Below, one piece after another: positions 19,390 through 48,633 of a stretch of 64,000 bases of DNA; position 1 is the first letter of the stretch; each line of letters begins with the position of its first letter. The stretch is from Eubacterium sp. AF36-5BH (GTDB lineage: Bacteria > Bacillota > Clostridia > Lachnospirales > Lachnospiraceae). The notes beneath the pieces are model-generated. The model had not been told where the DNA came from. It was given only the letters and a program-made list of their open reading frames with translations, and did not search any database. The stretch covers positions 39,657-103,656 of the forward strand of contig NZ_QTVG01000009.1 of assembly GCF_003460505.1 (NCBI RefSeq), read 5' to 3'. Made by a program: the position numbers and the translations under genes.

Positions 19390-19392
19390 TTT

Positions 19393-20547: not shown

Positions 20548-20549
20548 AA

Positions 20550-21587: not shown

Positions 21588-21675
21588 TTTATTTCCTACT
21601 TCTTCCAAATTGTATTTTTTGTTGATACCCACTTATTGTTTGTGTTATATGTTTTTGCCTTATGAGTCCAATACT

Positions 21676-21876
21676 TTAACATAATATATTAATTTGCGAA
21701 CCTAATTTTGAACAAACTATATATGGGTCTTGTTCTCTCTTTATTGCTTTTATTAAATCTTCTTTTGAATTATATTTGTGGAATACTATATTTTTATTTA
21801 GATTTGACTTTAGAAATGTATTCTTGATTTGTCTTACATAATCTTCATCATGATTGTATATTGCTATGTTTATCAT
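21676..21876 (-). pseudogene. Truncated response-regulator receiver remnant (LytTR type?)
   Basis: 66-codon frame from an ATG at 21876 with a strong AAGGGGG site. The opening MINIAIYNHDEDYVRQIKN resembles the first strand and acidic pocket of receiver domains from LytTR-type regulators, and FHKYNSKEDLIKAIK fits the next helix. The frame stops at about the point where the phospho-accepting Asp would be expected, and no DNA-binding domain follows before the permease gene. I read it as a decayed regulator of the downstream ABC exporter. A genuine short protein cannot be excluded. Confidence 0.5.
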
Positions 21877-21986
21877 ATGTTCCCCCTTTAATTTTGTTTC
21901 ATTTTTCAAGACCTCCATAATTCTATCACAATTTACAGATTGTGTAAACATTAGGACTACAAAACCTCTCTCATTTATAGAACAAC

Positions 21987-22012
21987 AAGGAATGTCCTTT
22001 AGAACATTCCTT
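21987..22012 (-). terminator. Hairpin after the sortase gene
   Basis: 9-bp stem AAGGAATGT/ACATTCCTT starting 13 bp past the sortase stop. It is followed on the minus strand by a modest T-rich tract (TTGTTGTTCT). Confidence 0.6.
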
Positions 22013-22024
22013 GCCATTTAATAA

Positions 22025-24294: not shown

Positions 24295-24322
24295 AGAATA
24301 AGGGGAAAAATCCCCTTATTCT
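24295..24322 (-). terminator. Terminator/attenuator hairpin overlapping the giant gene's stop codon
   Basis: Perfect 12-bp stem AGAATAAGGGGA/TCCCCTTATTCT with a 4-nt loop, followed on the minus strand by TTTATT. The TAA stop of the giant gene (24316-24318) lies inside the upstream arm. Ribosomes finishing the giant protein would melt the stem, which could let transcription continue into the next gene. Confidence 0.75.
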
Positions 24323-27300
24323 ACTTCCTTTCTTCTCTTTTTACCGAATATCAATAATATTGCACCTGCAAGCATTGCTAATACCATTGGTACTAATGCC
24401 CACCAATATTTCATGTCTAAGCCGGTCTGAATCTTATCAGATTTCTCTACTGGAGTAAATCCAAGATAAGCGTTCTTATGATTGTAACCATCAAGCTCAT
24501 ATTTAAGCTTGTAGTAGCTCTTAGCCTTTCTTGGAATTGCCAATGTAATTGTTGGAGTAATACCTGTTGTTACCTTGTCCTTAGCACCCTTAGAAGTGTC
24601 AGGAGCAAGAATATTAACCTGTTTGCTTCCAAATATTACAAAGTCATAATCCTTAGTAAATGAACGTTCATCCGGTTTTTCCATTGTCAAACGATATTCA
24701 TAAGGTTCATTATTTTCATCAAGAACCGGAAGATTTTCAAATTTGAAGAATCCTCTCTTATCTGTAACAGTTTTTCCACCTGGATACTTAACAAACTTGT
24801 CATCAGATTTCTTCTTGTATAATAAGTAAACATCTTTGTTTTCAAATTTCTGTTCACCCTTATCAATAATACCATCTGCATTAGCATCTTCAAATACAAT
24901 ACCTGCAATGCTTCCTACTCCGTAAGGAATAATACCTGCATCAAGTGATTCTACTGAGAATCCGTATGAAATATTATAGCCGTCTACGTTGTAATCAGCC
25001 GGTGTTGTGTTATCAGCTTTATCTGCTAAAATCATCAATGCCTGTTCTGTTTCCAGATAGCCTGTCTTTTCATTCAAGTCACTCTTGTTTCCTTCAGCTT
25101 CAACATGGAATTTTGTAACTCCATACTGACTTGGGATTTCTGAAACCTTAACACGATATCCGTATACTACATGTTTTTCATCAACATTTCCGTATAACTC
25201 AAGGTTATCGAACTTGTATTTTCCATCCTTGCCAGTCTTCATTGTTACAGGCTCTTCTTCGTCTATCTTAACCCATTTTCCATTGTTAAGATATAACTTT
25301 TCAAGTGTAACAGTAACGCCCTTAGCGTATTTCTTTTCATTACTAATTCCATCTCTGTCTTTGTCAACCCATACAAAACCTGAAATTGAGTAAACACGTT
25401 TTGCTACAAATCCGCCGTTATACTGTTCGCGGTCAATTCCCTTAACAACATCATAACCTTCGATTATGTATGGTGTGTTAGGATTTTCATCATTGTCAGC
25501 TTTCTGTGCTAAAACAATACAACCCTTGAATAATTCTTCTCTGCCATCTTCTTTCTTAGTAATTTCGAAAGTATCGCTTCTAAGTGAACTATCTTTATCA
25601 CCATTGTTCATCTCGTACTTAGTTGTCTGTCTGTCAGATTTGTCAATTACATATACTTTATATCCATACATGTAGTTTGTTCCATCTTCATTAACAAATG
25701 TATCAAGATTATCGAACTTATAGTTACCGTCTTTATCAGTCTTTGTCTTAGCAAAGAATTCAACATCTTCTGTTGTTCCTGTTCCTAACTGACCTGTTGT
25801 ATTTTCCGGAGCAAGCATCCATTGGCCGTCCTTGTATACAAAACGCTTTAATCCGATTTCTACATTTTCTAACATCTTATCACCATCGTTTATTAAACCA
25901 TCGTAATTTACGTCATCGAATATAGAACCTGAAATAGCTGCTTTCTTAATTTCAGTGTAGCCACCATTTTGCTTCTTACTATGTTCTGCAAGAATTACGT
26001 TGTAACCTTCAACCTTGTAAAGATCATCAATTCCCTTAACATTAGTATCTTCTGTAATCTTGCTTGCGATTACAGTCTTTCCATCAAGCATTTCATCGAT
26101 TGATGTATCAGCCTTAATAATGTGACCACTTGTAAGCAAGTAACTGTCATCACCGTATCTTGTTACGGCATATCCGTCAGGATCTTTAATTACCCATACT
26201 TCATAACCGTATAACTTATTAGATCCTTCTTCTTTCTTGTGTGTGTTCAAATTACTGAACAGGTATCCACCGTTGGCATCTGTTGTTGTAGTACTTATGA
26301 AGTCTTCCTCATGAGTTGGTACCCACTGACCGTCTTCATATACAAACTGTTTAAGTCCAACTTCAAATCCTTCAAAGAACTTGTCGTTTTCGTCAATCTT
26401 GCCATCGTAATTTACATCTTCAAAGATTGTACCACTTATTGAACCTCTCTGTTCTTCAACATAGCCTGCGTTGTAATTCTTATCATGTTCTGCCTTGATT
26501 ACGTTGTAACCTTCAGCCATGTAAATATCATCAACGCCCTTCTTATCTTCAGCAGTTGTTGCCTTGTGAGCAACTATTGTCTTGCCATCAAGGATTTCAT
26601 TTAAGCTTGAATCTGCCTTTAATATGTGTCCACTTACAAGTAAGTAACTGTCATCACCATATCTTGTTACGGCATATCCGTCAGGTCCTTTTACAACCCA
26701 AACTTCATAACCATATAACTTGTTGACTCCGTTATCTTTCTTATGAGTATCAAGATTATCGAATATGTATCCGCCATCCTTGTCTGTCTTAGTTGCACTA
26801 ATGAATTCGTCATCATGAGTTGGTACCCACTTGCCATCTTCGTATACAAACTGTTTCAAACCAAGTTCAATGCCTTCAAAATACTTATCGTCTTTATCAA
26901 TCTTGCCGTCGTAATTTACGTCATCAAATACTGTTCCGCTTATTGAACCTTTTTCTTCTGCTACATAGCCTGCGTTGTAGTTCTTAACGTGTTCTGCTTC
27001 AACTACATTGTAGCCTTCTGCAAAGTAAACATCATCAATTCCACTCTTTTCGGTATCATTTGCAACCTTGTGAGCTACTACTGTCTTACCGTCAAGGATT
27101 TCATCAAGCTTTGTATCAGCCTTTAATATGTGTCCACTTACAAGTAAGTAACTATCGTCACCGTATCTTGTTACTGCGTAGCCGTCTGGATCTTTTATTA
27201 CCCAAACTTCGTAACCATATAACTTGTTGACTCCATTATCTTTCTTATGAGTATCAAGATTATCGAATGTGTATTCACCATTCTTATTTGTCTTTGTGGT

Positions 27301-30300
27301 ACTGATAAATTTATCATCATGAGTTGGTACCCACTTGCCATCCTCATATACAAACTGTTTAAGTCCAACTTCAAATCCTTCAAAGAACTTGTCGTTTTCA
27401 TCAATCTTACCGTCGTAATTTACATCATCGAATACTGTACCACTTATTGAGCCCTTCTGTTCTTTTACATAACCTGCGTTGTAGTTCTTAACGTGTTCTG
27501 CTTCAACTACATTGTAGCCTTCTGCAAAGTAAACATCATCAATTCCTGTAACGTCATCCTCATCTGTAACCTTATGAGCTACTACTGTTTTACCATCAAG
27601 GATTTCGTCAAGCTTTGTATCAGCTTTTACAATCTGTCCAGTTACAAGTAAGTAACTGTCATCACCATATCTTGTTACTGCGTAGCCGTCTGGATCTTTT
27701 ATTACCCAAACTTCATAACCGTATAACTTGTTGACTCCGTTATCCTTCTTATGAGTATCAAGATTATCGAATGTATAATTTCCATTCTTATCTGTTGTAG
27801 CTTTTGCTATGAAATCACCTTCATTTGTCGGATTCCACTTGCCATCTTCGTATACAAACTGTTTAAGTCCGACTTCAAAGCCTTCAAAGAACTTGTCGTT
27901 TTCATCAATCTTACCATCGTAATTTACATCATCGAATACTGTACCGCTTATTGAGCCTTTTTCTTCTTTGATGTAGCCGGCATTATAATTGCTTGCAACC
28001 TCTGCCATAATTACATAGTAGTCATTTACATTATAAGTATTATCAATACCTGTCATGTCATCCTGGTCTGTAATCTTATGAGCTACAACTGTCTTACCGT
28101 CAATTATTTCCGGTGTATCTGTGTCATTCTTAAGGATGTGATCGTTAACGAGTAAGAAGCTATCCTTACCATATTTTGTCTTAGCATAACCGCTTGGATC
28201 TTTAGTTACCCAAACTTCATAGCCGTACAACTTGTTCTCACCATTTTCGTTTACATAAGTATCAAGATTATCGAATACATAATGACCATCCTTATCTGTT
28301 GTTGTCTTAGCAACATACTGACCTTCATTATCTTCTTTCCATTTTCCGTTTTCGTAAATAAAACGTTTTAGACCAATCTCAACACCTTCGAATAATTTTT
28401 CATCACTATCAAGTTCACCGTCGTAATCCTCATCATCAAATGCGATTCCTTCGATTATACCTTTTCGTAATTCTGTATATCCTGCATTGTAATCTTTAAG
28501 GTGTGACTCACGTACAACGTCATATCCTTCTACTACATACAAGTCATCTAAACCACCAAGAGTTTCTGAACTTGCTTTTCTTGCAACAACTAACTTGCCA
28601 TTAAACATTTCATCTAATGAAGTGTTCTTCTTAATAACCTGACTGTTAAGTAATACTGCACTGTCATCAGTTCCATTATTACTCTGATATCTTGTTATAC
28701 CGTAACCTGCCGGTTTGTTAACAACCCAAACTTCATATCCGTAAATATGTTTGTCTCCGTTGTCTTCAACAAAAGTATCAAGTCCGTTAAACTTATAATT
28801 TCCATCTGCATCTGTTACTGTTGTTGTGTAGTAATCATCGTCTCCCTGAGATAATTTCCACTGTCCATTTTCATAAACATATCTCTTTAAGCCAATAGTA
28901 ATATTTTCGAATTTACCATCATTCTTATCAATGATACCATCTACATTCTTATCATCGAATACACAACCTTCAATGCTACCCTTTGCGTACTTAACAAATC
29001 CAAGATTGTAGCCCTTACGTGGAATGCTGATTGTACAATCATAATTTTCCACAATATGAGAACATTCAGAATCAATGTCTGTAATCTTCTTAGCAATCAT
29101 TGTGTTTCCGTCCATTAATTCGCCAAGTTCAAGGTTTGGATTCTTATCACCCTTAATAACCTGCATGCTATTAGCAATTAATGCACTGTCGTCTTTATCG
29201 TTATTTGCCTGATAATATGTTGCAGCCAATGTCTGCCCTTCATCGTTTACAGGCATTTCTAATAACCATACTGTGTATCCATAAAGAATTGGATCATCTG
29301 TTGTATCTTCATGTGATGGCAATTCTTTAAATGCATAATAGCCATCTGCATCTGTTACTGTTGTAGCGTAATATGTGTCTCCGTTTTCGTTTGGTGCTTC
29401 AACCCACTTCTTAGTTGCAACATCATACTTATAACATTTAACGCCAATCTTTACACCACTTAGTAACTTATCCTGTTTTGTCACGTCAGTTTCATCTGTA
29501 TCGTACTTACCATTGTTATTGTTATCCTCAAATGCAATACCATCAATATATGAATGGTCCTTGTCATGAGCAACAAGTCCCATATTGTACTGCGTTAAAT
29601 CTCTTCCAAGTGCAATATCATAATCACCGATTATTGTTGCACTAGCAGGTTCTGTTGATGGTTTTGCTGCTATAACATAGCCATCCATTTCTTCTTTGTC
29701 AGTTCCTGCGTATGGGCTGCTTGCAATAGTCTTGGTTATATCATATTTTCCACCATTCTCTTTGATTAACGCATTACTATTCTTAACGACTCCGTTAGCC
29801 TTATGTTTAGTAACATGATACTCATCAGGAATAATATCCACCTGGAGTTTGTATCCAGCAAGGTAATTCTTATTATTAATTGTTACCTGTGTTGGAACTT
29901 CGATTTCATATTTTCCGTCTATGCTTGTAGCATCAACTATGTCTGTATATGTAACAGCATTGCCGTTTACGAGATACTGTTTCCACTGACCGTTATCATA
30001 GTAGTATGTTGTTGCTGTAACAACCATCTGTTTGTTACCAAGAGCATCCTTAATTTTCTGTGTAAATTCGTCTGCCTTTCCATCATCACTACTATTAATA
30101 ATTCCATCATAGTTGTAATCTTCAAATACATTACCTGTAATTGTTGATTCCTCGAAAGCATGATATCCTGCATCGAGTTTTTCATAATCCTTAGATGTTA
30201 CAAGATCATAATATTTATCCCTATAGTCTGTAACATGTGCTAATTCATTTACTTTCTTTGCAGCACTGCTTCCATTAACTGTTCCCTGACCGCTAACATT

Positions 30301-33300
30301 ACCACAACTGTCTGCAACGATAATATAGTCATCGTCCTTTGTAAGTTCCTTATTCTTAAGATCACTACCACGCTGTGTGTCAGGATCATATGTTCCATAC
30401 AATGTAGGTCCATAGGTTGTATTGTCAGGATCTTCTGCCATATAAACCTTGTATCCTGCAAGATAATACTTGCCGTCTTTATAAACAAATGTATCAAGAT
30501 TATCTAAGTTATATTCTCCATTACTATCTGTTACTGATACAGGGCTTGTATATGTAGTATCTTCAACCCAGTTTTCAGTTCCACTTGAAACACTGTCAAG
30601 ATAGAAACGTTTGATAGTAACTTTCTGTCCAACCATACCTAGTTCATTACTATCCATAATTCCATCATAGTTGTCATCCAGCCAAACCTTACCTGATACT
30701 GAGCCTTTTTCAAATCTAACCAATCCGGCATCACTTCCATCATGGTCTGTTACCTTGTTTACATCAAAGTAACCAAGGTCATTGTGAATTAAATATTCAC
30801 TCTGGTTATTAAGAGATGCGTCTCCGTATTCACTCTTAACATCCTTATCCGGTATCTTCTTAGCAGTAATAATGAATTCATCATTTTCATTAAGCATTAA
30901 TTCATCATCTGAATTCTTCCACAAATCACTATCTACATCTGCTGCTGCATTTCTGTATTTTGTTATGCCATAATGTAAGTCATCAATATTTGTATTAACT
31001 CTTACCTTATAACCAACTATACATTCTGTTCCGTCTGCCATTGTTGCTGTAGACTTCACATCAGTAAACTTGTATGCACCATCTGCATCTGTATTAGTTG
31101 TAGTTGTGTATTCACTAAACTTGCCTGCATCCTTTAAGTCTGCATCCTGAAGTTTCTGCCACTTATTGTTGTAGTATACATATGGAACAAGCTGTAATTC
31201 AATATTTTCAATTCCAGGCTCGTCAACTTCGTTGCCGTCGTCATCTGTATACTTATCCTGCTTACCGTTATAATTCTTATCTTCCCAAACAACACCGTCA
31301 ATTTCAGCATCATCTTTTGTTGTTAAGCCTGCATCGTACTCTGTAATAATAAGTGCATCTGAAATATCATAATCTTTTCCATCTGCTGTAAATTTATAAT
31401 CATCTAAAGTGCTGTCTGTAGCTTCACCTGCCGGTACAACGATATCATCTGTAAGATATCTGTAGTTGCCTCCTGTAAGTGGTAAATCACTGTCAGATAA
31501 TCCGTTGTTCATATAGAACTTAGTTGGGATGTATTTCTTACCTAATGTGTCAGAAACCTTATCAACACTACTCATATCTAACTTAACCTTGTATCCACAT
31601 AAGTATCTGTTATCACCAATCTTATATGAAGTATCAACAATAAATGTATATGATGAGCCCTGACTTTCGACTACATCATCGTCATCATCATTTATTCGAA
31701 TCCACTTACCATTGTCGTAATAGTATTTCTCAAGTACCAACTTAATTCCGTCAATACCCGGTTCTGAAACAAGTAATCCATTTTCATCAATGTACTCATT
31801 TCTAATACCATCGTAGTTCTGGTCTTCAAATATGTATTTACCAATAGCACCAACACCTGCCGGTACATAACCGAATCCTAATCTATCGTATGAACCATAT
31901 CTACCATCTACACAATTTCCCATATCGTAGTCATCTGACTTTGGAAGAACTGAGAATATGTTAGTTGTATTCTTATTAAGATTCTTGTTGTATAGTAAAT
32001 CGTTATCCTTCTCATATTGAAGAGCCTTGGTACTTAATGTTACCGGTGATGGTTTGAGTATGTCATCAATCTTACCTGTGTCAGCAATAGCTATGTAGCT
32101 TCTGTATGGATATAACGTTGTACTGAAATATCCATTACTGTCTGTACAAATAGTTGTCTTATTCTTAGTGCTTATCTCGTTACCATTCTTATCATATGCC
32201 GGTACCATTGTACCATCGGTCTTAACTTCATAAATATAAATATCTACATTTTTAAGTCTCTTTTCGGCATCATCCATCTTACCATCAATGCTGTCTGTAA
32301 TTGTCTTTCCAGCAGCATCATACTGAATATCCATCCATGAATATCCACCGTATTCAAATGATGGGGCAACACCTAAATCATAAGATGTCATCTTTTCATC
32401 ATAATCCTGATAAGTTGACTCATCTGTACCAATAGCATCAATTTGAATTGCATCTTTTGTCTGGATAGTTAATGATTCAACCTTTGCACTATCACTTGGT
32501 TCATCACCTTTGCCTGTTACTCCTAAATCTGGAAGGGTATCATTTGCCTCTCCTGGACGGTATACGTCAACAGATGTACCTGTAACACCTATACTTCTAG
32601 TTGTAAGAGCATATTGATTGTATTTACTATCCTTAGGGAATGTGTAACGTAATTTATATTTTCCCGGTTTAATATTTGAAATAATGAAATATCCATCATT
32701 ACCATAAACATCTTTTTCTGTTGTATACGACATTGGTCCGTATGTTGTATAAATTGATGAACCCATAGTATCTGTTTTAATCTTACCTGTGCTTTCGTCA
32801 ATTACACAATACTTGCCGTCTTTTTCTACAACAGCTTCACCTAAACGGTTTACTGGATATCCGTTTTCTGTAAGAAGTTCAACTTTAACTCCGTTAATAC
32901 CCGGATCATCAATTTCACCGTCATAATCTAAGTCTTTTGTCTTCTTCTCAAGTAACCATCTACCCTTACCGTCACGCTGGTAATAATCTGCTTCGTCTGT
33001 AAACTTAGCATTATAGCTTTCATCCAACCAAACATAATGTCCGATATAACCTCTGTCAGATGGAGCTGTTAAGCAAACACCTGCATTTGGTGATTCTGTA
33101 ACCTTGTCATCTCCTGACTGAGCTGTGAAACTATTCCAACTATCTGAATCTGCTGTATCCTGTAAGATTGTTTCTGATTCTTCAGAAATACAATTCTTGC
33201 TTAATGGAAGGTTAAGTGGTGCCTTCAAGTCATATGATACAGACAACTTAGCCTTTGTACTTAAATAGTAATCATCTGTAGGCTCTACATAAATTGCCTG

Positions 33301-39300: not shown

Positions 39301-42300
39301 TAATGTTTCACCAATTTCTAAGCGTGAACCATCATCAAACTGTATCTGATATACGTTAAAGTCAATTGATGTTGTGTCTGTGTTTTTCTTAGTTCCATTA
39401 AATATCAGATCTGTGTATGCATGACCGCTACCTGTATTAGAAACTCCGTCATTGTAATTCTTTGTAGTAACAAAATCTCCACCATAATCTGCTGCATCAC
39501 TGAATTTTGTTTTCGTAATAGTATACTTTGGTATTTCCGAATCATCTTTCAGTGTACCATCTGCATTATACCATTTTATCTTAATCTTATTTGCATCAAG
39601 ACCTGAAGTAGTAATGTATTCAGGAATCTTGTCAAACAATGCAGGATTCAATAATGCCCCCTGCTGATCAGTTTGTCCTCTCTTATTGTTAATTACAGTT
39701 GTCTTATACCAAACTTTGTCACCAGGTCGATAACCTTTTATCTGTTCAGCATTAGCATTGTATTTAACTGCTGCGTCATCAGAATTTTTAAATATTTGTG
39801 TGTGAACTGTAAGTATTGGTCTTTCTCTTGTAATTACCGCTGTTGTACTTCCGTATATTGTTGCTGTAGAAGTATCTTCATATTTAGTATCTGTTGTTGT
39901 TTGATTTTCATCAGTGTTGCTAATGTCTTCATCATGTAAATGTTCAAACGCACAACTTGCTGATACTCCTATAGTGAACTTGTCACTGGCAGTTGTGTTT
40001 TGCTTCTCAGCAGCATTTCTAGTGTCACGATATCTACCAATACCATGAAGTTCGAATGGCTTATCTGCTGTAGCAAATGTAATTTCTTCTGCTGGTACAT
40101 CATAATATGTCCATCTAATAGATACTGCATCCTTTAATAAGAAGTAACCTGCATCTATCTGAGCTTGTGTGATTGTATCACCTGTTAATACTTTATCAGC
40201 CTCTACCCATTGAGATGTATACTGTTTATCTGTATAAATACCAACATCTGTTCCTATTGTCTTACCTGATAAATCCTTGTAGAAACAATATTCAACCTTA
40301 GCCTTCTTAGTTCCTGTAGAATCCATCTTTTCAGGATAAGCAAATTCCGGTTTTTCTGTTAAATCAAATCCCTTAAACCATCTACCATCTTTTCTACTAT
40401 TAGTTAAGAAAGATGTTGTATATGTAATAGATGATAATTTATGTGTTGTGCTATTAGTTACAGCTCCCTTATTTGGACCATACAACTTAGCAATCATAGG
40501 TCTTTCATCTATGTGTGGATTTGTATCTTCATTTCTACCCGGTGTCTCATATCCGTCAACATATACTAATTCAGGTGTCAATGAGCTATTGTAATAAGTT
40601 ATGTCACTCTTAATAGTTCCAACATAAGAACTTTCATTATTATAGAAAGAACCATAATAGCCACTTTTACCATATAATCTGCCATATGTTACATTATCCC
40701 CACTATCCTTGTAATATAATGCATGCTGTGAATATGTATGTTTTGGATGTGTAGTAACATATACATTTTGTACAATATTCTTACCTTCAAACGGTTTTAC
40801 TTCCTGTGTTAATTCAGTTATGACAACAATCTTAATATTTTTATCTTTAGTTATTTGATTGTATTTTTCATCTTTTGTTAAATCACCACATGAAATGTTT
40901 AACTGTTTGTAATTTGTATCTGTATTATCACTTGCCTTATAGTAACGCTTGTCCTTAACTATACTTACTGTGTTGCTTCCACTGGTTGCCTGTGCAGTGA
41001 TATCTTCATTTCCTATATCAGAGTCATTCTCTAATATGTACCAACCAATAATTCGCTGACCATTTGGTACAATGAATCTTACATCAGGATGATATACAGG
41101 AATTGCTGAATCATCTGATGCTCCTAAACTAATCTGGTACTCAATAAAGTCATCAGGTAATAATTGATTTTTATTTAATGCTACTTTAGTTTTACCATCA
41201 ATGTCGTAAGCGAATGAATTTGTACTATCTGAAATTTTTGTTTCACGTTTCATTGAAACTTCAAATGTACTTACAAGGTTCTTTACAACATATTCCGTGT
41301 ATGTACTTGTGCCTGTAACATATCCTGACCATCTCCATGCATCAGGTTCCTGTGTTGTAAAGGTTGAACTTACATAGTTACGTGCATGTGGCCAACTTGT
41401 TGTAAAACTATCAGGACTATTAATTATTGTTGGTGTTGAATCATATGTCCATGCATTAGCTTCAATGTCATCCTTATTTCTGTCAACATAAACACCATCA
41501 TAAGAGAATGTGCTTTGAGCATTAGCTAATGTAACGTCAGCCAAATTCTCTTTGTTATCATTTAAGAAATCACCACCATCTAATATACCTTCTCCTACAC
41601 CTTTGAACTTAATTACAAATGAATCTACAAATTCTTTATAATACTGTGAACTGTCTTTCTTTGTATTATTAGGTGTAATCTTTGTTAATGTATTAACACG
41701 ATCTCTAACATATTCATTTACATCAAATACATACTGCTTATTTTCACTGTCATAGCTAAAATATTTATGTTCAGTATCTGTAAGCAATGTTTTCAATTGT
41801 GCCAATGTGTATGTAGTGTCACCTATCTTTAAGTAATCTACATTAAACCAATCACCAGTTATAAACGCCTCTGGTATATAAATATGTTTAAGACGATAGG
41901 TTGAGTCCATACTATTCGTAACAGTGGCACTATCTATTTCTGCGGATCTTCCAGATTCACTATTTGTATCCTGACGGTTCCAAACTTTAATATTAAATTT
42001 AGCAAGGTTAGGTGTCTTGTTGTCACTCTGATAGTCATATATAGTATTGCTTTTATTTCCTACTGAAATATTAACACCCGCCTGGAACGGTATTCTATAG
42101 GATGTAATCAAAGCACTGTCATTATTAGAAGTATATGGTTTTGTGCTTTCCTGCATATAGTTGTCGCACTTCATATTGTTCCAATCATTAAATTTGCCTG
42201 ATGTTTTAATATTATCATCAGTAATTCTATATATGTCACCACCAACGTATATATCAGGTAAAGTGTCTACCCCATGATTATGTGAATCAAGCAAATCCTC

Positions 42301-45300
42301 CATATCCTTCAACTCTGCTGCATAGTCAACATCACCGCCTAAATCTTTTAGGTGAATTTCATATTTTGTAATATATTCATCATCACCTAATACGATAGAA
42401 CCTGCTGTATTTCCTGTAACCTGTGATGAGCTACTGCTTTGTGGATACACTACAGGTATTTCATAAAATGTTCTACTTGCTGTAGTATGTACCTTATGTT
42501 GGTCACTTCCATCAACCCGTCTATTATTATTGGTTGTGTTTTCTTTTTCAATATCTTTCCCCTGTATAGTAATTGTATCCGTTAAGTTAGTATCAGTCAC
42601 ATTGCCATCTGTATCTAATGTTGACTTCTTCTTATATACAACCACCTTGTCAATATATTGTTGTAAATCTTCTGAAATAAGAATCTTCTTTGCTAAGAAA
42701 CCATAATAGTTTGAATCACTATCAGGTCTAACGTACGGTAACGTATCTGTTAATACAACTTTATCAGTAAAGGAATGTTTTCCTGTCCAGTTGTATGGGT
42801 CATTATAAATCGAATAGTCATCTGAATGACCTGTTGACCTATGTTCATCCATACAATCTTGTGATGCTCCATACGGAGTTTGCACAAAACTAACTGAGTA
42901 TTCATTGTATAATGAGAACTTAGCCTTTCTGTCCGTCTTGGTCTTTGGTGTTTCATGTACACCTTTCACAATACTGTTCTTTTCCGGATGTACATAAACC
43001 TTTGCTGTAGTAAACAAATGTCCCGATTTATAAGCTGCATAATTATGTACACCATATGACATACATGTTTTGTAATAATCTTGCCATGACCAAAGCGAAC
43101 GATAAGCTGCATTTGCCGCATCAATACGGTTAACTATGCCATTTCCGCCTGCCAAATCTGACGAAGCAATGCTAGTATTATTCATTCCATTTGGCTTTCC
43201 TTCATCAGTTCTCTTCTTTGCCTGAGAAAACTGACGTTCAGTATAACCGCCAATATCCATCTTTGTGCTTGCTGTAGCATCAGCCACACCTGATTTAAAG
43301 AAACGACCCGTTATCTCAAACATATACTTAGTCTTTTCATCATTAAAATTATACCAAGTACCATAGTCTGCATTTTTAGCAACTGTTTCACCATTTTTCT
43401 CTTCAGAAGCATCTCTGTTAATTTTTAGAGCAATGACGATTTTGTCTACAGCCTTATCTGTCTTATAGTCAATCTTAGGACTTCTATATATACCATATTC
43501 ATCACCCAATTTACAAAGATTTAATCTATAATAAGAATCTTTTCCATTAGTTCCTGTGATTTTTTCTATAGAATCTTTCCAGTCGGACTCTTTTACTGTA
43601 GTCCAAGTATCATTATCGTCACCTTCACGATGAATTTTTATTTCCTTAATATAGTCATATGCATATGGATGCACCTTTAAATAATATGCTTCAAATGAAT
43701 TCGATGGCAAATTAACCGTCATTTCAACATCTACTGCTGTGTTCATTGACTGTGTATACACATAATCATTCGGAGTACACTTTGCATTAGATGTATTTGG
43801 TACCATATCATACAATTCCTGATGATTTGCATCATTCGGATAATTGCTTCCCGAATTCAAATATTGTCTAAAGTCTAATAAATATGAACCTATTGCTTTA
43901 TAACCAATATCTAATTCATCATTATCTGGATATTCATCAGTCCATCCATAATGAGAGTGCTCCAATCGCATATGCTCATATGAATCACTCACTGAGTCAA
44001 ATCGTTTACCATTATCGTTATTGTCTTTATATCCTGCAACCATTGTTGTATCAAAATACATTTTACTAACTAATGCCTTTGCAGTATCACGTGTTGTAAA
44101 TATATAGTCATCACCACTGTCTCTGAATTCAGATAAGTAGTTCTTTCCATTAACTTCCATTTCATTCCAAGAATTAATCTTAGAATCTAAATAACCGTAT
44201 AATGTAACTCTGTGTTTTTCATCAGCCGGTGCTTCTCTTGTGGCTCTGAAGCCCTTGCCTGTAATAATCACTTTCTTAAGATTCTTGATATTCATACCGA
44301 ACTCAGTATATATCTTTTGTTCATCTATATAAATATCTCCGTCTACAACCACGCCTTCAATTACACTTTGACCGTCTTCAGATATTAACTTGCCGTTTTT
44401 ATAGTCTATATTAAAGACTTTTCCCTGGTCGCTATCTGCATCATATAATGTAAGCTTTTCTAACTTTTCGTACTGACCTACTAATTCTTTACTAATTCTA
44501 ATTCCTGTAGTGTGGAATCCTGTGTTAGCTTCATCACCCTGTTTGTTGTCATTAACAGGCAAGTCAATAATAACATCAAAGTCATCTAATTTTGATTTGC
44601 ATGTATTTCCTATATCAATTGTATAGATGAAATCTCTGTCGTATGGTATACCTAACCACTTATCAGTTTTATCTCTATTATCTGCATCAGTTTTTGTTGT
44701 TCCATCTAAATCATAGTAATGAACATCTGCATGTATTTCCGCATATGGTTCCTGAATGTATAAACGATTTGTTAAATCTACAATGCTCTTTGTATCTGCC
44801 TCCACCTGCATTGTCTTATCATCAGGTGTGAAGTTCATAACAGCATCAAGATTATTGAACCATTCTGTTCTACCATCAATTTGAATTTCCATCTCAGGAG
44901 TATCTTCGTCCTTGCCTCCTAAGAAGTTATTTAAATCAATAACCATATATTTCAAATATTCAATCTGAGTATAATCTTTCAACTCAATTGTAATTGTTCC
45001 ATCCTGTGATACAGTCATGCTGTCAAATGGAATAGTAACATCTGCATTGTCTGCACTTGGATCTTTGTCCCAATTCCAGAATCTAATCTGTTTAATGTCT
45101 GCCACATCTTTGAAGTTCTTAATAGTAATTGTTTTTGTTAAGAAGCCTCTTACATCATTAGACCTTGTTTTACTTCCAACACTACTTGATAAGTCAATTG
45201 AAATTTTTGCTTCTTCTGAATATGATGGTGTTGCATTACTAACAAAGAATTTGTAACCAGCATTGTCAATTCCCTTTGGAACTTCAATCTGATTAATCTT

Positions 45301-48234
45301 ATCCTGTTCCTTAGCTCCACTTGCCTTGTTTTCATCTGACTCAATATGCTGTCCGTTTTCAATATAATCCTGACCATAACTTATGCCTTTAATAACAGGA
45401 TTAATATTTTTAACGATTAGTGTTGCTTCATCTTCATCACTTACATTCAAATCCTCATCTTTATATTTAGTTGTAAATGTACCTTTGACTATTGTGCAGT
45501 CATACTTTTCTTCCTCAGGTATGTCCTGATCATCTTTTTTATCGTCATCTTTTTTATCGTCATCTTTTTTATCGTCATCTTTTGATGTATCTTTCTTTAC
45601 CTTAGGTGAAACTAAATTTGCAATTCCTTCTAATAATATGTAAACATCTTCGTTATCCTGAGTTATTTCTATTTTGTCTAAAAAGCTCTTCATGTCTACA
45701 GTAACATTAATAAGTTCGCCTTTATCTTTCCAGACGCTTTTATCTATATAGTAATTTCCGTCTGCATCTTTACTCAAATCAGATACCTTTAATGTAATGT
45801 CAGGATTTGTGTCTGCACTTGTGTGAAGTATTATAGAAGATATCTTCGCCACTTTATCTACTAATCTCTTCGACAAAATAACCTTGTCTGTAATAAAGCC
45901 CTTTACCTTTCCAGCTTTATCATTGTATTTTGCCAGCTCACCAGAATCAAACTGTCCTGGCATAATCTTTGAAACACTGTCGTTACCTAACTGATAATAA
46001 ATACCATAGCCTTTTGTGTTAACAGGTACTTCCATAGGATCTTTTTTCTCATATCCTGTATCAGTTTTCTTAACAACTTTTGTATCAATCTTAGGATCAG
46101 CAACTATTGCCTGAATGGACGCTGTAGATTTATCTAATTCTTTTAAATCTTTTTTGTATCCATCCTCACCTTCTTCTGAACGTTTGCTTGGATTACCAAC
46201 CCATCTTTCATAAGAAGTAACTAAGTCGTTTGGATATTTTTTACCTTTACTTACAACACCATTGATTGCCACTCGACCATCAAAGCTTTCTCCTGCTTCA
46301 ATACGTTTTTTGAATTTCAGTCGGAAGTGATAGTTATATACACACTTCTTACCTGTTGCTTCAACCTTCTGTATATAGTCATCAATTAAGTTTCCTAACT
46401 GTAAGCTCCATGCTTTGTGTGTTGAATCTGTCAAATCCGCATCTGGTTCCATTTTACCTAAAGTAACATACTCTGACTTTGGATCTCCTGTACCGTTAAG
46501 ATTATCATAAGTTAGGAATTCAAACTGAACTGTATTATCCTCATCAAACCAATCTGCAAGTTTCGGTTCGTCCTTGTCAGCATCTACATTGAATATTGCA
46601 GATATTTTGTTTAGTTCAAAATCTTTATCAATGGAGTCAGTTGCCATTGCATTGAACACTGGTATATTTCCTGTATTTTGGAAATGTCCAAGATAGTAAT
46701 CTACGGTATCATTAATAGCAACTTCTTTTTCGTCTTTTTCAACCTCCTGTTCTACACCGTTTACTTCTTCCGTTTCTGTAACAAATTTCTTGCCTTGGAA
46801 GTCATCAACTGGTGCTATAAATCCCCAATTAACATTTTGACTAACTTTTGTCCAAGTATATCCCTCACCAAAAGCTATAGTGTTATATACCTTAATTGGA
46901 ATTCTAGATAATTTATCACTAGGTATATCTGTGCTCATAGGAAGTGATACATAGAATGTACGATGATCATATCCTGATGAATCTTCATGCTTGTTTACTC
47001 CGGCTCCACTGTAAACCTTACCATTTTTTTCAAAATAAATACCTCCATCTTTTTTGAAATAATATGGCATTGTCTTTAACTCATTTCCCTTATCATCTGT
47101 GATGTTAGTGAAATTAGTCATATCCCATTTTTCCATCGCAGCCTGACCTGATTCAGTAGACTCTAGTTCAGTAACATCATAAATCATGATGCCACCCTTG
47201 CCGGGAACACCTACCATAAGTTCATTAGCGTTTTCCCAATTGTCCCATTTATTATTAGCAGTCGGTGAGCCGTTGTTGTACAGGAACTTTGCTGCATTCT
47301 CTACATGAAGTCCGCTTTCCCATCCGTCTACGGTTTCAAAATCCGTCGGTGCTTTAATTTGGAAGTTGGAAGAATCATAACAGGAATCCGTATCCTTAGA
47401 TGTATTTTTTATTGTAATTTTATAAGTTACATAATTGTATCTATCCCAAAGAACATTCTTAGGTGCAACTCCTACGATACTTGTTGTCCACTCTAAGTTA
47501 CTACAAATCATAGTAAATGTAGCAGCAGTATCTGTTACTGTAGTTGCATCCTTTTCGTAACCATCATATATATTTCCACTATAGTCTCTATAGGTTGCAT
47601 AACCGCCACCCAGCTTAACTATACTCGCTGAGTTTTCAGGCATATTTCCTTCAAACCACAAGTTCACAGGCAGTACCGCCTGTTTTCCTGCAACAACATT
47701 ACCTGTATTTTTAACCCTTACCTTAGTTCCCCAATAATGTTTGTCCTGAGCATAATCCCAATCTAATGGTGTGTCAGATGTAAACTCTGCCATAACCCTT
47801 ATAAGACTTTTATCATTTTTAAAATCTTCATCAGTTAGCTTTGCGGCCTCCTCTGATGGAATGAGTGTAAGCTTGTCATTTACAATACGAAATACCGGTA
47901 ATTCCAATTCAAAGTACATTCCTGAAGCTCTACCGTTACCATTCAGGTTTCCTACAAGGTTTACCTTAATATGATTCTCATATCCACGTCCTAACAACGC
48001 TTTGTTCTTACCTTGCAGACTATCCGATACTTCATTGTCTCCATTCGTATTATCCTTATCTGCGTTAATACTACTACCACCTGACTGGTACACCATTGAG
48101 AATTCAATTCCCGGTGTCTCCCCTTTACCATTGTTGGAAGCAGCGTATGTGATTGGTGTGGATTGTCCAAACATGGATGTTACCATTGACAATACCAATA
48201 GCCAACCTGTTATTCTTCTCGCTATCTGTTTCAT
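24316..48234 (-). CDS. Giant 7972-residue cell-wall-anchored surface protein with SdrD_B repeats
   Basis: One uninterrupted 23.9-kb frame. AGGAAG precedes the ATG. Residues 1-32 form a signal peptide ending in TYA|A. Residues ~33-5060 are non-repetitive, Asp/Asn/Tyr/Thr-rich and beta-type, with scattered DUF11-like stretches (e.g. near 2838 and 4828) and an Asp-Lys linker near 900. About sixteen SdrD_B/Cna_B-like modules follow, starting near 5062, 5295, 5462, 5643, 5840, 6027, 6228, 6419, 6592, 6760, 6928, 7096, 7264, 7432, 7615 and 7774. Most open with a DxNxDGxxD-type, probably Ca-binding, loop (FDDVNYDGKIDENDK). The C-terminus is IQTG (7935-7938), a hydrophobic helix and KKRRKEVE, a sorting signal. 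SdrD_B modules in known adhesins form rigid stalks. The likely role is a very long fibrous surface adhesin, attached by the downstream class B sortase. The ligand is unknown. Confidence 0.93.
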   Translation of the reverse strand: MKQIARRITGWLLVLSMVTSMFGQSTPITYAASNNGKGETPGIEFSMVYQSGGSSINADKDNTNGDNEVSDSLQGKNKALLGRGYENHIKVNLVGNLNGNGRASGMYFELELPVFRIVNDKLTLIPSEEAAKLTDEDFKNDKSLIRVMAEFTSDTPLDWDYAQDKHYWGTKVRVKNTGNVVAGKQAVLPVNLWFEGNMPENSASIVKLGGGYATYRDYSGNIYDGYEKDATTVTDTAATFTMICSNLEWTTSIVGVAPKNVLWDRYNYVTYKITIKNTSKDTDSCYDSSNFQIKAPTDFETVDGWESGLHVENAAKFLYNNGSPTANNKWDNWENANELMVGVPGKGGIMIYDVTELESTESGQAAMEKWDMTNFTNITDDKGNELKTMPYYFKKDGGIYFEKNGKVYSGAGVNKHEDSSGYDHRTFYVSLPMSTDIPSDKLSRIPIKVYNTIAFGEGYTWTKVSQNVNWGFIAPVDDFQGKKFVTETEEVNGVEQEVEKDEKEVAINDTVDYYLGHFQNTGNIPVFNAMATDSIDKDFELNKISAIFNVDADKDEPKLADWFDEDNTVQFEFLTYDNLNGTGDPKSEYVTLGKMEPDADLTDSTHKAWSLQLGNLIDDYIQKVEATGKKCVYNYHFRLKFKKRIEAGESFDGRVAINGVVSKGKKYPNDLVTSYERWVGNPSKRSEEGEDGYKKDLKELDKSTASIQAIVADPKIDTKVVKKTDTGYEKKDPMEVPVNTKGYGIYYQLGNDSVSKIMPGQFDSGELAKYNDKAGKVKGFITDKVILSKRLVDKVAKISSIILHTSADTNPDITLKVSDLSKDADGNYYIDKSVWKDKGELINVTVDMKSFLDKIEITQDNEDVYILLEGIANLVSPKVKKDTSKDDDKKDDDKKDDDKKDDQDIPEEEKYDCTIVKGTFTTKYKDEDLNVSDEDEATLIVKNINPVIKGISYGQDYIENGQHIESDENKASGAKEQDKINQIEVPKGIDNAGYKFFVSNATPSYSEEAKISIDLSSSVGSKTRSNDVRGFLTKTITIKNFKDVADIKQIRFWNWDKDPSADNADVTIPFDSMTVSQDGTITIELKDYTQIEYLKYMVIDLNNFLGGKDEDTPEMEIQIDGRTEWFNNLDAVMNFTPDDKTMQVEADTKSIVDLTNRLYIQEPYAEIHADVHYYDLDGTTKTDADNRDKTDKWLGIPYDRDFIYTIDIGNTCKSKLDDFDVIIDLPVNDNKQGDEANTGFHTTGIRISKELVGQYEKLEKLTLYDADSDQGKVFNIDYKNGKLISEDGQSVIEGVVVDGDIYIDEQKIYTEFGMNIKNLKKVIITGKGFRATREAPADEKHRVTLYGYLDSKINSWNEMEVNGKNYLSEFRDSGDDYIFTTRDTAKALVSKMYFDTTMVAGYKDNNDNGKRFDSVSDSYEHMRLEHSHYGWTDEYPDNDELDIGYKAIGSYLLDFRQYLNSGSNYPNDANHQELYDMVPNTSNAKCTPNDYVYTQSMNTAVDVEMTVNLPSNSFEAYYLKVHPYAYDYIKEIKIHREGDDNDTWTTVKESDWKDSIEKITGTNGKDSYYRLNLCKLGDEYGIYRSPKIDYKTDKAVDKIVIALKINRDASEEKNGETVAKNADYGTWYNFNDEKTKYMFEITGRFFKSGVADATASTKMDIGGYTERQFSQAKKRTDEGKPNGMNNTSIASSDLAGGNGIVNRIDAANAAYRSLWSWQDYYKTCMSYGVHNYAAYKSGHLFTTAKVYVHPEKNSIVKGVHETPKTKTDRKAKFSLYNEYSVSFVQTPYGASQDCMDEHRSTGHSDDYSIYNDPYNWTGKHSFTDKVVLTDTLPYVRPDSDSNYYGFLAKKILISEDLQQYIDKVVVYKKKSTLDTDGNVTDTNLTDTITIQGKDIEKENTTNNNRRVDGSDQHKVHTTASRTFYEIPVVYPQSSSSSQVTGNTAGSIVLGDDEYITKYEIHLKDLGGDVDYAAELKDMEDLLDSHNHGVDTLPDIYVGGDIYRITDDNIKTSGKFNDWNNMKCDNYMQESTKPYTSNNDSALITSYRIPFQAGVNISVGNKSNTIYDYQSDNKTPNLAKFNIKVWNRQDTNSESGRSAEIDSATVTNSMDSTYRLKHIYIPEAFITGDWFNVDYLKIGDTTYTLAQLKTLLTDTEHKYFSYDSENKQYVFDVNEYVRDRVNTLTKITPNNTKKDSSQYYKEFVDSFVIKFKGVGEGILDGGDFLNDNKENLADVTLANAQSTFSYDGVYVDRNKDDIEANAWTYDSTPTIINSPDSFTTSWPHARNYVSSTFTTQEPDAWRWSGYVTGTSTYTEYVVKNLVSTFEVSMKRETKISDSTNSFAYDIDGKTKVALNKNQLLPDDFIEYQISLGASDDSAIPVYHPDVRFIVPNGQRIIGWYILENDSDIGNEDITAQATSGSNTVSIVKDKRYYKASDNTDTNYKQLNISCGDLTKDEKYNQITKDKNIKIVVITELTQEVKPFEGKNIVQNVYVTTHPKHTYSQHALYYKDSGDNVTYGRLYGKSGYYGSFYNNESSYVGTIKSDITYYNSSLTPELVYVDGYETPGRNEDTNPHIDERPMIAKLYGPNKGAVTNSTTHKLSSITYTTSFLTNSRKDGRWFKGFDLTEKPEFAYPEKMDSTGTKKAKVEYCFYKDLSGKTIGTDVGIYTDKQYTSQWVEADKVLTGDTITQAQIDAGYFLLKDAVSIRWTYYDVPAEEITFATADKPFELHGIGRYRDTRNAAEKQNTTASDKFTIGVSASCAFEHLHDEDISNTDENQTTTDTKYEDTSTATIYGSTTAVITRERPILTVHTQIFKNSDDAAVKYNANAEQIKGYRPGDKVWYKTTVINNKRGQTDQQGALLNPALFDKIPEYITTSGLDANKIKIKWYNADGTLKDDSEIPKYTITKTKFSDAADYGGDFVTTKNYNDGVSNTGSGHAYTDLIFNGTKKNTDTTSIDFNVYQIQFDDGSRLEIGETLEVYYEAEIRKEDLPLAYTTRNNEDGTQKTYVDYYPKMGEYYQWQNFYWSYSYSYPYIGTIGSLSTRFANQNDMMDMNYLYHDVGVSGTRNKNIDKYEYLKESITYMPGSNETDTSNGNDEYGNNGYLKDQDMRTANNQQMTYYDPTRTTGKYNQLPVSENYRNGSVTGYSRDYYNKLMVLRVRDKNWQGNHEDVVIWTESRLHLQTAWLLASSQMIGDDDYLKSQEYLPTNYSKGQWDDHYTAYKWYYSSDHNQLNDYIRNLNDDTITTLEYDQDFTTRIGAYNYGDWDIESGLEFTYVMPQGIEPKLDKDGNPDFSDLKAEILSSGTSKNPVYSDIDIENDVKVEVIQSPNNKQGYLTPNIMRDPLLSTSTMNNSGDSYENKDAYYSEYEHTSWVLRITITKPLKKWFNRGDETGYAMYVNIPSHVYATPKNEYWYDEVMVKPVDTTKDLYYQVYDTTSLWGNNYLTDMPKPVSTQKYGMDVMWNTYYVHDDHHRDSNYYFLNGSPNTPYINGMNITNREVSSQGKDADSAASASVEERKVFSSGVRNTYASTGTRAHMRKPMIRTWTTVGEDNINGSKSQDYYVDPQGETSTLNIHVENKYWLNTLAPEWLLNYTTYQTFKVRHTYATDGGNMGTLYHPVVTNILPAGIVPKDTDGNLFTTDNKENAKKKLDWTLRGADYNGADLDTLKEYQEEQELYEATVEYIQLEGEDGTLEGRYKITFKQKEKVSIRNEKKVKIDSESSRVFSFKFFTADNPDLNTKDGTKDERLGEQYQSNRTFISSEMNNFKFKIDSDVENKQVAESTGMENPYYVGNEVVDSYVYKYNKKDRYHWTGTLKDSRLDIAETNRDYNDMPSGTPKAVLPKVPTASNLGSDSAIDATDQLGNKRYYEKDNQIQEINGDQLSLEDYPELRQNVYLRSEDKGADLDNGCVDSNAGVMTSNRIRVKYPVIENKTFVSKNAADAVDNLGARSPEWQDDIYEYYPSEDEPVQYMDDLYYNVKVVNGADKVKDDEYYYQGNISHAKMKVTVVLPSIVKAVPLKGDAVYLIYKKADGTVVKMNIDEAEKHGFELKVVDKHYNDNKEQVITFEVCTAGDYEDTDELPIYSDYVHGKHLPGYFAYKDTLVVGVKTQVRNNVLDDSEIETSDEAWKNDSAWDNKFKADGYVTFDDADGYYLKDTNPDGGFDALTDLDDGGILYEREATDDKDNEVDYDSDGDYSDKYAKDESAIVTLLKPHSTVRLDTSVQRREVDNPDILGGSHRTIDDPIVKSSVRLSVYMDQAVNEGSAVREFIVDWRIPFRSTFLATKEEAPVNEDSISKQIYAIGTGVWEIPENCGDEAYREALKRNLKVQVLALCNDNVDDAADGATYQDVKNSNAGEWLNLTQLYNEKIAGTSDKGVSIDKNTIIDIRKLSEKLYGNRTSLGKRIYQVRYIISSDEDEYVVPKGFRLDIDADSDTDGKQEMNDVDPEHNNLDPLPESVVSTANDQDEYDDENKIGNAAFVMMPASHLSETRRHVNHFATGWAKYDDTQLCADSERSRAGYYIAKELPVMEIDMKNQYFMVSRNKDTNDIEFGWSNDITINNSSNMLKYSIELKNLDNEEIAKTDVGEVEEDYASNPQVVALLPVIQNLSSAVESEDPLVYKYFHEVEYGSDEWKNSLAPTFKSPETFDDSQAVWSWHVEDKDGNVVSKDKCKISSVSMNMYEKIAGIKYERQRRFIRWTADGQLEPGQRMVIDYMLPIATDENTMVESELLSSKGYGFKSGAFEPSIPVSQNVKNYAYEIDTRDVNDNGKSNIENTITVSVNNVGFAGTQAFNRNKRAFSEYGYGMSEKGTGADRPALVPEGTKYSFTSSIYNPEPVLGKKGYRQPIIYDVLPFVGDTQLYAPTGFSTSRGTDWRGWLNLESIKIEAVANGSSSTMTDGNNVNVWIGPFKYNGNTIEKTDISDLPTLEQTSSVNFYKSIRGKTTSAINEKKRYFVRLSDLLKLKTSDPEKFEELQKHAQAIYVEPTDDYYLSTKAKLSVSYDLKAPLNLPLSKNCISEESETILQDTADSDSWNSFTAQSGDDKVTESPNAGVCLTAPSDRGYIGHYVWLDESYNAKFTDEADYYQRDGKGRWLLEKKTKDLDYDGEIDDPGINGVKVELLTENGYPVNRLGEAVVEKDGKYCVIDESTGKIKTDTMGSSIYTTYGPMSYTTEKDVYGNDGYFIISNIKPGKYKLRYTFPKDSKYNQYALTTRSIGVTGTSVDVYRPGEANDTLPDLGVTGKGDEPSDSAKVESLTIQTKDAIQIDAIGTDESTYQDYDEKMTSYDLGVAPSFEYGGYSWMDIQYDAAGKTITDSIDGKMDDAEKRLKNVDIYIYEVKTDGTMVPAYDKNGNEISTKNKTTICTDSNGYFSTTLYPYRSYIAIADTGKIDDILKPSPVTLSTKALQYEKDNDLLYNKNLNKNTTNIFSVLPKSDDYDMGNCVDGRYGSYDRLGFGYVPAGVGAIGKYIFEDQNYDGIRNEYIDENGLLVSEPGIDGIKLVLEKYYYDNGKWIRINDDDDDVVESQGSSYTFIVDTSYKIGDNRYLCGYKVKLDMSSVDKVSDTLGKKYIPTKFYMNNGLSDSDLPLTGGNYRYLTDDIVVPAGEATDSTLDDYKFTADGKDYDISDALIITEYDAGLTTKDDAEIDGVVWEDKNYNGKQDKYTDDDGNEVDEPGIENIELQLVPYVYYNNKWQKLQDADLKDAGKFSEYTTTTNTDADGAYKFTDVKSTATMADGTECIVGYKVRVNTNIDDLHYGITKYRNAAADVDSDLWKNSDDELMLNENDEFIITAKKIPDKDVKSEYGDASLNNQSEYLIHNDLGYFDVNKVTDHDGSDAGLVRFEKGSVSGKVWLDDNYDGIMDSNELGMVGQKVTIKRFYLDSVSSGTENWVEDTTYTSPVSVTDSNGEYNLDNLDTFVYKDGKYYLAGYKVYMAEDPDNTTYGPTLYGTYDPDTQRGSDLKNKELTKDDDYIIVADSCGNVSGQGTVNGSSAAKKVNELAHVTDYRDKYYDLVTSKDYEKLDAGYHAFEESTITGNVFEDYNYDGIINSSDDGKADEFTQKIKDALGNKQMVVTATTYYYDNGQWKQYLVNGNAVTYTDIVDATSIDGKYEIEVPTQVTINNKNYLAGYKLQVDIIPDEYHVTKHKANGVVKNSNALIKENGGKYDITKTIASSPYAGTDKEEMDGYVIAAKPSTEPASATIIGDYDIALGRDLTQYNMGLVAHDKDHSYIDGIAFEDNNNNGKYDTDETDVTKQDKLLSGVKIGVKCYKYDVATKKWVEAPNENGDTYYATTVTDADGYYAFKELPSHEDTTDDPILYGYTVWLLEMPVNDEGQTLAATYYQANNDKDDSALIANSMQVIKGDKNPNLELGELMDGNTMIAKKITDIDSECSHIVENYDCTISIPRKGYNLGFVKYAKGSIEGCVFDDKNVDGIIDKNDGKFENITIGLKRYVYENGQWKLSQGDDDYYTTTVTDADGNYKFNGLDTFVEDNGDKHIYGYEVWVVNKPAGYGITRYQSNNGTDDSAVLLNSQVIKKNTSLDEMFNGKLVVARKASSETLGGLDDLYVVEGYDVVRESHLKDYNAGYTELRKGIIEGIAFDDEDYDGELDSDEKLFEGVEIGLKRFIYENGKWKEDNEGQYVAKTTTDKDGHYVFDNLDTYVNENGENKLYGYEVWVTKDPSGYAKTKYGKDSFLLVNDHILKNDTDTPEIIDGKTVVAHKITDQDDMTGIDNTYNVNDYYVIMAEVASNYNAGYIKEEKGSISGTVFDDVNYDGKIDENDKFFEGFEVGLKQFVYEDGKWNPTNEGDFIAKATTDKNGNYTFDNLDTHKKDNGVNKLYGYEVWVIKDPDGYAVTRYGDDSYLLVTGQIVKADTKLDEILDGKTVVAHKVTDEDDVTGIDDVYFAEGYNVVEAEHVKNYNAGYVKEQKGSISGTVFDDVNYDGKIDENDKFFEGFEVGLKQFVYEDGKWVPTHDDKFISTTKTNKNGEYTFDNLDTHKKDNGVNKLYGYEVWVIKDPDGYAVTRYGDDSYLLVSGHILKADTKLDEILDGKTVVAHKVANDTEKSGIDDVYFAEGYNVVEAEHVKNYNAGYVAEEKGSISGTVFDDVNYDGKIDKDDKYFEGIELGLKQFVYEDGKWVPTHDDEFISATKTDKDGGYIFDNLDTHKKDNGVNKLYGYEVWVVKGPDGYAVTRYGDDSYLLVSGHILKADSSLNEILDGKTIVAHKATTAEDKKGVDDIYMAEGYNVIKAEHDKNYNAGYVEEQRGSISGTIFEDVNYDGKIDENDKFFEGFEVGLKQFVYEDGQWVPTHEEDFISTTTTDANGGYLFSNLNTHKKEEGSNKLYGYEVWVIKDPDGYAVTRYGDDSYLLTSGHIIKADTSIDEMLDGKTVIASKITEDTNVKGIDDLYKVEGYNVILAEHSKKQNGGYTEIKKAAISGSIFDDVNYDGLINDGDKMLENVEIGLKRFVYKDGQWMLAPENTTGQLGTGTTEDVEFFAKTKTDKDGNYKFDNLDTFVNEDGTNYMYGYKVYVIDKSDRQTTKYEMNNGDKDSSLRSDTFEITKKEDGREELFKGCIVLAQKADNDENPNTPYIIEGYDVVKGIDREQYNGGFVAKRVYSISGFVWVDKDRDGISNEKKYAKGVTVTLEKLYLNNGKWVKIDEEEPVTMKTGKDGKYKFDNLELYGNVDEKHVVYGYRVKVSEIPSQYGVTKFHVEAEGNKSDLNEKTGYLETEQALMILADKADNTTPADYNVDGYNISYGFSVESLDAGIIPYGVGSIAGIVFEDANADGIIDKGEQKFENKDVYLLYKKKSDDKFVKYPGGKTVTDKRGFFKFENLPVLDENNEPYEYRLTMEKPDERSFTKDYDFVIFGSKQVNILAPDTSKGAKDKVTTGITPTITLAIPRKAKSYYKLKYELDGYNHKNAYLGFTPVEKSDKIQTGLDMKYWWALVPMVLAMLAGAILLIFGKKRRKEVE
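25942..27957 (-). repeat. Four near-identical 504-bp tandem repeats inside the giant gene
   Basis: Units at 27957-27454, 27453-26950, 26949-26446 and 26445-25942, each exactly 504 bp (168 codons). Each opens GSISGT(V/I)F(D/E)DVNYDGKID and contains YGYEVWVIKDPDGYAVTRYG or a close variant. The flanking modules at 28461-27958 and from 25941 keep the same 504-bp phase but are more diverged, so the array grew by in-frame duplication. Confidence 0.95.
45531..45583 (-). repeat. 15-bp in-frame tandem repeat encoding DDDKK units
   Basis: About 3.6 copies of a 15-bp unit (CATCTTTTTTATCGT on the plus strand) give a charged DDDKKDDDKK linker near residue 900 of the giant protein. Being 15 bp, gain or loss of units keeps the frame, so length variation between strains is likely. 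Confidence 0.9.
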
Positions 48235-48598: not shown

Positions 48599-48633
48599 AG
48601 CCTGCGCATCTATTACTATTAGATACGCAGGCT
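48599..48633 (-). terminator. Strong rho-independent terminator after the GT-C-like gene
   Basis: Stem AGCCTGCG-x-ATCTA / TAGAT-x-CGCAGGCT (13 pairs, one mismatch), 7-nt loop, followed on the minus strand by TTTTTTCGTT. Confidence 0.92.

Follow-up and report, generated by a model that had tools for sequence, protein, structure and literature searches.

We analyzed a 64,000-nucleotide stretch of DNA from Eubacterium sp. AF36-5BH (contig NZ_QTVG01000009.1), hereafter the window, which is apparently chromosomal, as it holds dnaK, lepA, lon and trigger-factor genes together with tRNAs. All of its features given with coordinates here lie on the minus strand. At 24316-48234 there is a gene for a giant surface protein, which occupies a single frame of 7,972 codons (23,919 bp) from an ATG start to a TAA stop, the only stop in the frame, and would encode an acidic chain of ~901 kDa (calculated pI 4.66). 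Read by eye, the N-terminus (MKQIARRITGWLLVLSMVTSMFGQ..YAAS) is a signal peptide of approximately residues 1-32 (48139-48234), and the C-terminus is a sorting signal (24316-24432) made up of an IQTG motif at residue 7935, a hydrophobic stretch, KKRRKEVE and the stop. Between them lie a body of approximately residues 33-5040 (33115-48138) and a stalk of 14 SdrD_B-like domains with calcium-type loops (PF17210; residues 5463-7869, 24628-31848). Downstream come the genes for a 459-aa membrane-anchored, family-5 solute-binding-like protein that has no lipobox (22904-24283), which we call the companion, and for a 238-aa class B sortase (22025-22741). A first-pass annotation of this DNA had correctly described the intact frame, the signal peptide and the sorting signal, and had overlooked the SdrD_B stalk and the two conserved downstream genes. 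Upstream, a terminator-like hairpin (48599-48633) appears to close the preceding transcription unit, so that the giant is probably transcribed from its own start.

Residues 1-5000 were compared with a set of 5.8 billion proteins, which yielded 46 homologues of 5,234-7,990 aa that are 23-99% identical to the giant, many of them near copies of each other. P0002 (7,967 aa), the nearest relative, is separated from the giant by 95 substitutions, 64 within residues 6001-7500, and has one unit of five residues fewer in an acidic DDKKD run encoded by 15-bp repeats (45530-45583). A contig named 'Eubacteriaceae bacterium' (L001), whose MGBC label we take to point to the mouse gut, encodes a 7,929-aa counterpart with 61% identity over residues 1-5000. 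GC content per codon position is even along the frame and within the range of the adjacent genes, and there are no internal stops in the giant frames matched by genome searches. Long homologues and stop-free frames in other genomes thus rule out an assembly artefact or a chance frame: the gene is real and intact, and the splitting by stops that the first-pass annotation had thought might undo its claim was seen in none of the relatives found. The giant also belongs, as had been proposed, among the largest bacterial proteins, though its own family has larger members (~12,100 aa). A relative in genome G254 (C116:22684-59061, minus strand) is half again as long, with 12,125 codons from the first start codon, ~12,093 from the ATG preceding the signal peptide and an open frame of 12,146. 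Genome G060 encodes two giant paralogues (C1:41919-70208 and C2 up to 169172, both on the plus strand), one of 9,429 aa and one with an open frame of 10,213; a companion and a sortase of its own stand beside each. These distant giants carry additional material between body positions ~200 and ~1200, and a Pfam scan of 9,999 residues of the large G254 and G060 relatives gave no match at E 0.01.

The body is the conserved part of the architecture. In 17 representatives (chosen from 47 proteins, the window's own included) it is largely colinear until around residue 5500, beyond which the number of SdrD_B domains differs. No Pfam family scored above its cut-off in residues 1-5000, the sequence families of PrgB and antigen I/II included, and a DUF11-type NCBIfam repeat at residues 501-546 stayed under its cut-off of 24 with 19.0 bits, which agrees with the earlier view that these ~5000 residues belong to no recognizable family. 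That they are non-repetitive holds for obvious sequence repeats; profile-profile comparison and structure modelling nevertheless reveal hidden tandem units of ~230 residues. Two AlphaFold2 models were built, covering 2,212 of the 7,972 residues in total. In the first, residues 480-1391 (44062-46797) are predicted to form four tandem Ig-like beta-sandwiches of ~230 residues each, matching the tandem Ig-like fold of 8beg (Foldseek E 4.8e-18, prediction only). The second, a highly conserved stretch (residues 2780-3870, 36625-39897), is modelled as pilin- and antigen I/II-like domains; a profile of this stretch retrieved no solved-structure sequence up to E 1, a comparison that relatives sharing the fold alone could escape. 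A free-standing version of the stretch was not seen either in a profile search restricted to lengths of ~600-1,900 aa, in which the 7,984 candidates with the highest word overlap were scored: the six matches (581-1,388 aa) lay on contigs of 2.7-4.2 kb and four of them were named 'partial'. Where new adhesive domains had been suspected in the body, the two modelled stretches instead look like Ig-like domains already known from stalks and adhesins. From these models and the profile comparison we infer that the body consists mostly of highly diverged PrgB-, pilin- and antigen I/II-type beta-sandwiches, of which the rod would contain roughly twenty.

The first modelled domain (residues 480-709, 46108-46797) contains a likely Lys-Asn isopeptide site of the CnaA/PrgB type, K483/D533/N669, with the lysine on the first strand and the asparagine on the last strand of the model. 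The three residues are kept in 14 of 16, 15 of 17 and 15 of 17 representatives, respectively, and are replaced jointly, by T, N and S in P0043 and by T, Y and S in P0047. Such a shared loss in these two proteins was found at just 1 of the 10 Lys, 1 of the 73 Asp and 2 of the 37 Asn conserved columns scored. PrgB domains employ the same Lys, Asn and Asp residues (PMC10588982). Another candidate domain, proposed on conservation and spacing, spans residues 4790-5040 (33115-33867), in which K4796, D4850 and N5034 are each present in 16 of 16 representatives. The ester-bond motif HxDxxDxxQ of Mobiluncus-type adhesins, by contrast, has no match in the 7,972 residues, and neither do RTX GGxGxD repeats. 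A thioester domain was considered and found no support: the best N-terminal cysteine (residue 244) occurs in 9 of 17 representatives, and no glutamine within residues 31-899 is more than 70% conserved.

Conservation is uneven along the protein, with residues ~2801-3800 and 5001-5200 standing far above the rest. A short conserved stretch around SNLxW lies nearer the N-terminus (residues 244-263, 47446-47505), in which W249 and W263 are invariant in all 17 representatives. Such a pattern bears on the proposal that the giant is a passive spacer or coat: a long component of the surface layer, or a shield keeping off phages, proteases or neighbours, for which length and stiffness matter and no ligand is bound. 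No binding domain was recognized in the protein, Ig-like and SdrD_B domains are typical of stalks, and the Ig-like domains of PrgB are proposed to form a rigid stalk (PMC10588982). The strength and unevenness of body conservation and the invariant tryptophans, however, exceed what a spacer should need, and we regard this proposal as rather unlikely.

The stalk behaves differently from the body. PF17210 (cut-off 29.7) was matched by three pieces that overlap, at 36.3, 97 and 97.6 bits. Because a simple pattern proved too strict, domains were counted using a profile built from the stalk units of the window itself, which gave 14 domains in the window and in genome G001, 10 in each of the 24 proteins P0004-P0027, between 1 and 14 in the others listed and none in P0044. 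Turnover of stalk length is fast, since near-identical relatives differ in SdrD_B number: P0003 and P0004 are 19 substitutions apart, yet differ within the stalk by 504 + 202 residues. Stalk length changes fast, therefore, and the body does not. Four stalk units of 504 bp (residues 6761-7432, 25939-27954) are 73-86% identical in DNA, and escaped Tandem Repeats Finder because its longest period is 500. SdrD_B stalk domains are common to the giant and to staphylococcal SdrC and SdrD, and the NCBIfam SdrC model was partly matched, far under its cut-off. Unlike the staphylococcal proteins, the giant has no SD-repeat wall segment, and its ~5,000-residue body is unlike their A region by sequence. 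The A region of the staphylococcal Sdr proteins is ligand-binding.

Ends similar to those of the giant occur in its relatives. The sortase two genes downstream matches TIGR03064 (159 bits, cut-off 153.75) and has the YGHN and TLSTC motifs and the subsequent arginine; it is the enzyme that most likely anchors the giant. A 113-aa frame without a Pfam or NCBIfam match above cut-off (21676-22017) occupies the interval between the sortase and FtsX genes. Two further sortase loci in G001 have mobile-element-like neighbours and no giants.

The companion scores above the cut-off for family-5 solute-binding proteins (PF00496, 63.5 bits against 32.4) and retains general motifs of that family, among them SDG and GxGxY. 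Among solved structures, peptide- and nickel-binding proteins match it weakly. It could accordingly be an ordinary peptide- or metal-binding protein that shares the operon, serving for instance nutrient use at the site of attachment. Several features argue against this. An N-terminal membrane helix without a lipobox is found in all six companions, whereas a lipobox is present in 26 of the 27 best-scoring ordinary relatives (21 by a strict pattern, five more by eye). No cognate permease or ATPase gene of the family-5 type adjoins the companion in the window, where FtsX-type genes are the neighbours, or in G001, and the companions of G060, G254 and G669 exceed the window copy by ~80-110 residues. 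In these respects the companion departs from the OppA, DppA and NikA type. The companions also form a clade of their own tied to the giants. When 397 genomes from the family were scanned with a companion profile (no more than three candidates scored in each), it gave 586-798 bits to the four companions present there and no more than 158 among the other matches listed, a gap that is partly built in, as the profile was made in part from those four. A tree is for that reason the fairer test, and there a branch (98/98) separates the six companions from 28 other sequences. The ordinary-protein explanation thus seems to us less likely than not.

Ten giant loci were read, two of which (G582 and G641) end within the giant, leaving eight readable downstream: the window, G001, both G060 loci, G254, G669 C96, G669 C52 and G153. 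The companion follows the giant in six of these (the window, G001, G060 C1, G060 C2, G254 and G669 C96, the G060 C1 copy being identified by a profile of the other companions at E 2e-90), and the sortase comes next in all but the last of those six, that is, at five of the eight loci. Upstream of the G582 giant there is also a solute-binding gene, but it encodes a lipobox, lies outside the companion clade and was not counted as a companion. The three genes might be functionally unlinked, their synteny a product of shared ancestry alone, with sortase and companion serving other proteins. Both genes are missing at two of the eight loci, the genomes examined commonly hold class B sortases and family-5 binding proteins, and the sortases beside giants do not clearly form one clade. 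Against this, the order of giant and companion and gaps of 1-98 bp between them are kept in six loci despite strongly diverged giants, the most distant of which are mostly 14-39% identical to the window's per 200-residue block. The companion tree, ((G669 C96,(window,G001)),(G254,(G060 C1,G060 C2))), is moreover identical in arrangement to that of the giant core, which carries a long-branch warning. We therefore consider a lack of functional link between the three genes improbable, and these sequence comparisons lead us to interpret the companion as a dedicated partner of the giant. Where the giant's reading frame stops, there is a strong hairpin (24295-24322), the same in G001 as in the window, which may determine how much giant is expressed relative to the companion; hairpins follow the giant stop also in G060 C2 and G254, and none is clear in G060 C1 and G669 C96.

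The distribution of the giants is patchy. In overlapping taxon samples, each including its centre genome, they were found around G001 in 4 of 397 genomes of its family, 6 of 392 of its order, 1 of 391 of its class and 1 of 23 of its genus (G001 itself in the last two); around G153 in 2 of 47 genomes of the genus, one a partial match; and around G669 in 1 of 2 genomes of the genus and 4 of 329 of the family. Among viral contigs there were 33 pattern matches, not one of them a relative, and hence no phage link. As for neighbouring genes in the window, three lie past the sortase at 18721-21632: one for a MacB/LolD-like ATP-binding protein, one for an FtsX-type permease and one for a protein of 386 aa that has no family. 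Behind the G001 sortase, clpB-like and other genes take their place. Upstream of the giant, 48671-50938 encodes a 755-aa multi-membrane protein with no family in Pfam and NCBIfam scans. Farther along, 54976-56700 encodes a papain-type cysteine protease (574 aa) that also carries lectin-like and copper-amine-oxidase N-terminal domains and is probably a further secreted surface protein.

Taken together, we favour, with rather better than even confidence, the interpretation that the giant is a sortase-anchored fibrillar adhesin or contact device with a dedicated companion and sortase. The chain would be exported by Sec and fold outside the cell into a stiff rod of Ig-like domains of the CnaA/PrgB/antigen I/II type, some of them probably locked by Lys-Asn isopeptide bonds. 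A calcium-loop SdrD_B stalk of adjustable length would carry the rod, the C-terminal signal would fix the stalk to the wall, most likely through the class B sortase, and the rod or its tip would act in adhesion or cell contact. The companion would most likely be a holder or chaperone outside the membrane, keeping the ~0.9 MDa chain until folding and anchoring are complete. From folding onward, including adhesion and the companion's task, this scheme is our interpretation of sequence and models.

Several observations count against it. At two loci, G153 and G669 C52, neither companion nor sortase stands beside the giant. The second half of each AlphaFold2 model is partly of low confidence, the Lys/Asp/Asn triad occurs in just one of the four modelled domains and G153 deviates at two of its three positions, while fold likeness itself says nothing about function. 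A canonical LPxTG is absent from the giant, which has IQTG instead, and the sorting motifs of module-bearing giants vary (IQTG in the window and G001, IPKTG in G060, NPKMG in G254), which weakens a strict pairing of sortase and giant. The giant-adjacent sortases fall in two groups, and a single clade was not supported (p-AU 0.057), although this tree is weak: three of the 31 rows, without the TC motif (G669C11, G047c and G001C6), were dropped, and some that were kept (G001C11, G669C133 and G247) resemble wrong or partial readings.

Giant cross-linked Ig-like adhesins are already known: the Mobiluncus mulieris giant adhesin has 7,651 residues and 51 Ig-like domains (PMC10619420). It resembles our giant in size and in being a secreted, wall-anchored single chain of many Ig-like domains. 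It has internal cross-links, for which the giant has candidate sites, whereas the giant has an SdrD_B stalk, body repeats invisible in sequence and a co-inherited companion gene. PrgB and antigen I/II (PMC10588982) likewise have tandem Ig-like (CSA/CSC) domains, the best fold match to residues 480-1391, and a sortase-type anchor, and share the Lys-Asn-Asp site with one giant domain. Set against them, the giant shows ~10% identity, units of ~230 rather than ~160 residues, no Pfam match, tenfold the residues and no recognized polymer adhesin domain. The Giant1-5 proteins of Apilactobacillus kunkeei, extracellular proteins of 3,000-8,000 residues with beta-solenoid N-termini (PMC12863079), are also giants of a Gram-positive commensal, but the parts modelled here are Ig-like. 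What is new is a widely diverged family of giants, its Ig-like domains hidden, together with a co-inherited, non-lipoprotein, solute-binding-like companion; a literature search, outside which most subscription literature lay, found no papers on the family or on the companion-sortase pairing. More tentatively, a solute-binding protein may have turned assembly factor here, within a three-gene export and anchoring module kept while the fibres diverged to ~20% identity and reached ~12,100 residues.

These results suggest that a protein stretch of thousands of residues, to all appearance unknown and free of repeats, can consist of Ig-like domains that have drifted past sequence recognition, and the family sets a conserved body apart from a stalk of rapidly changing length. 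How near-megadalton single chains are exported, folded and anchored is poorly understood in bacteria, and a co-inherited partner gene would open that question to direct testing in gut-type commensals.
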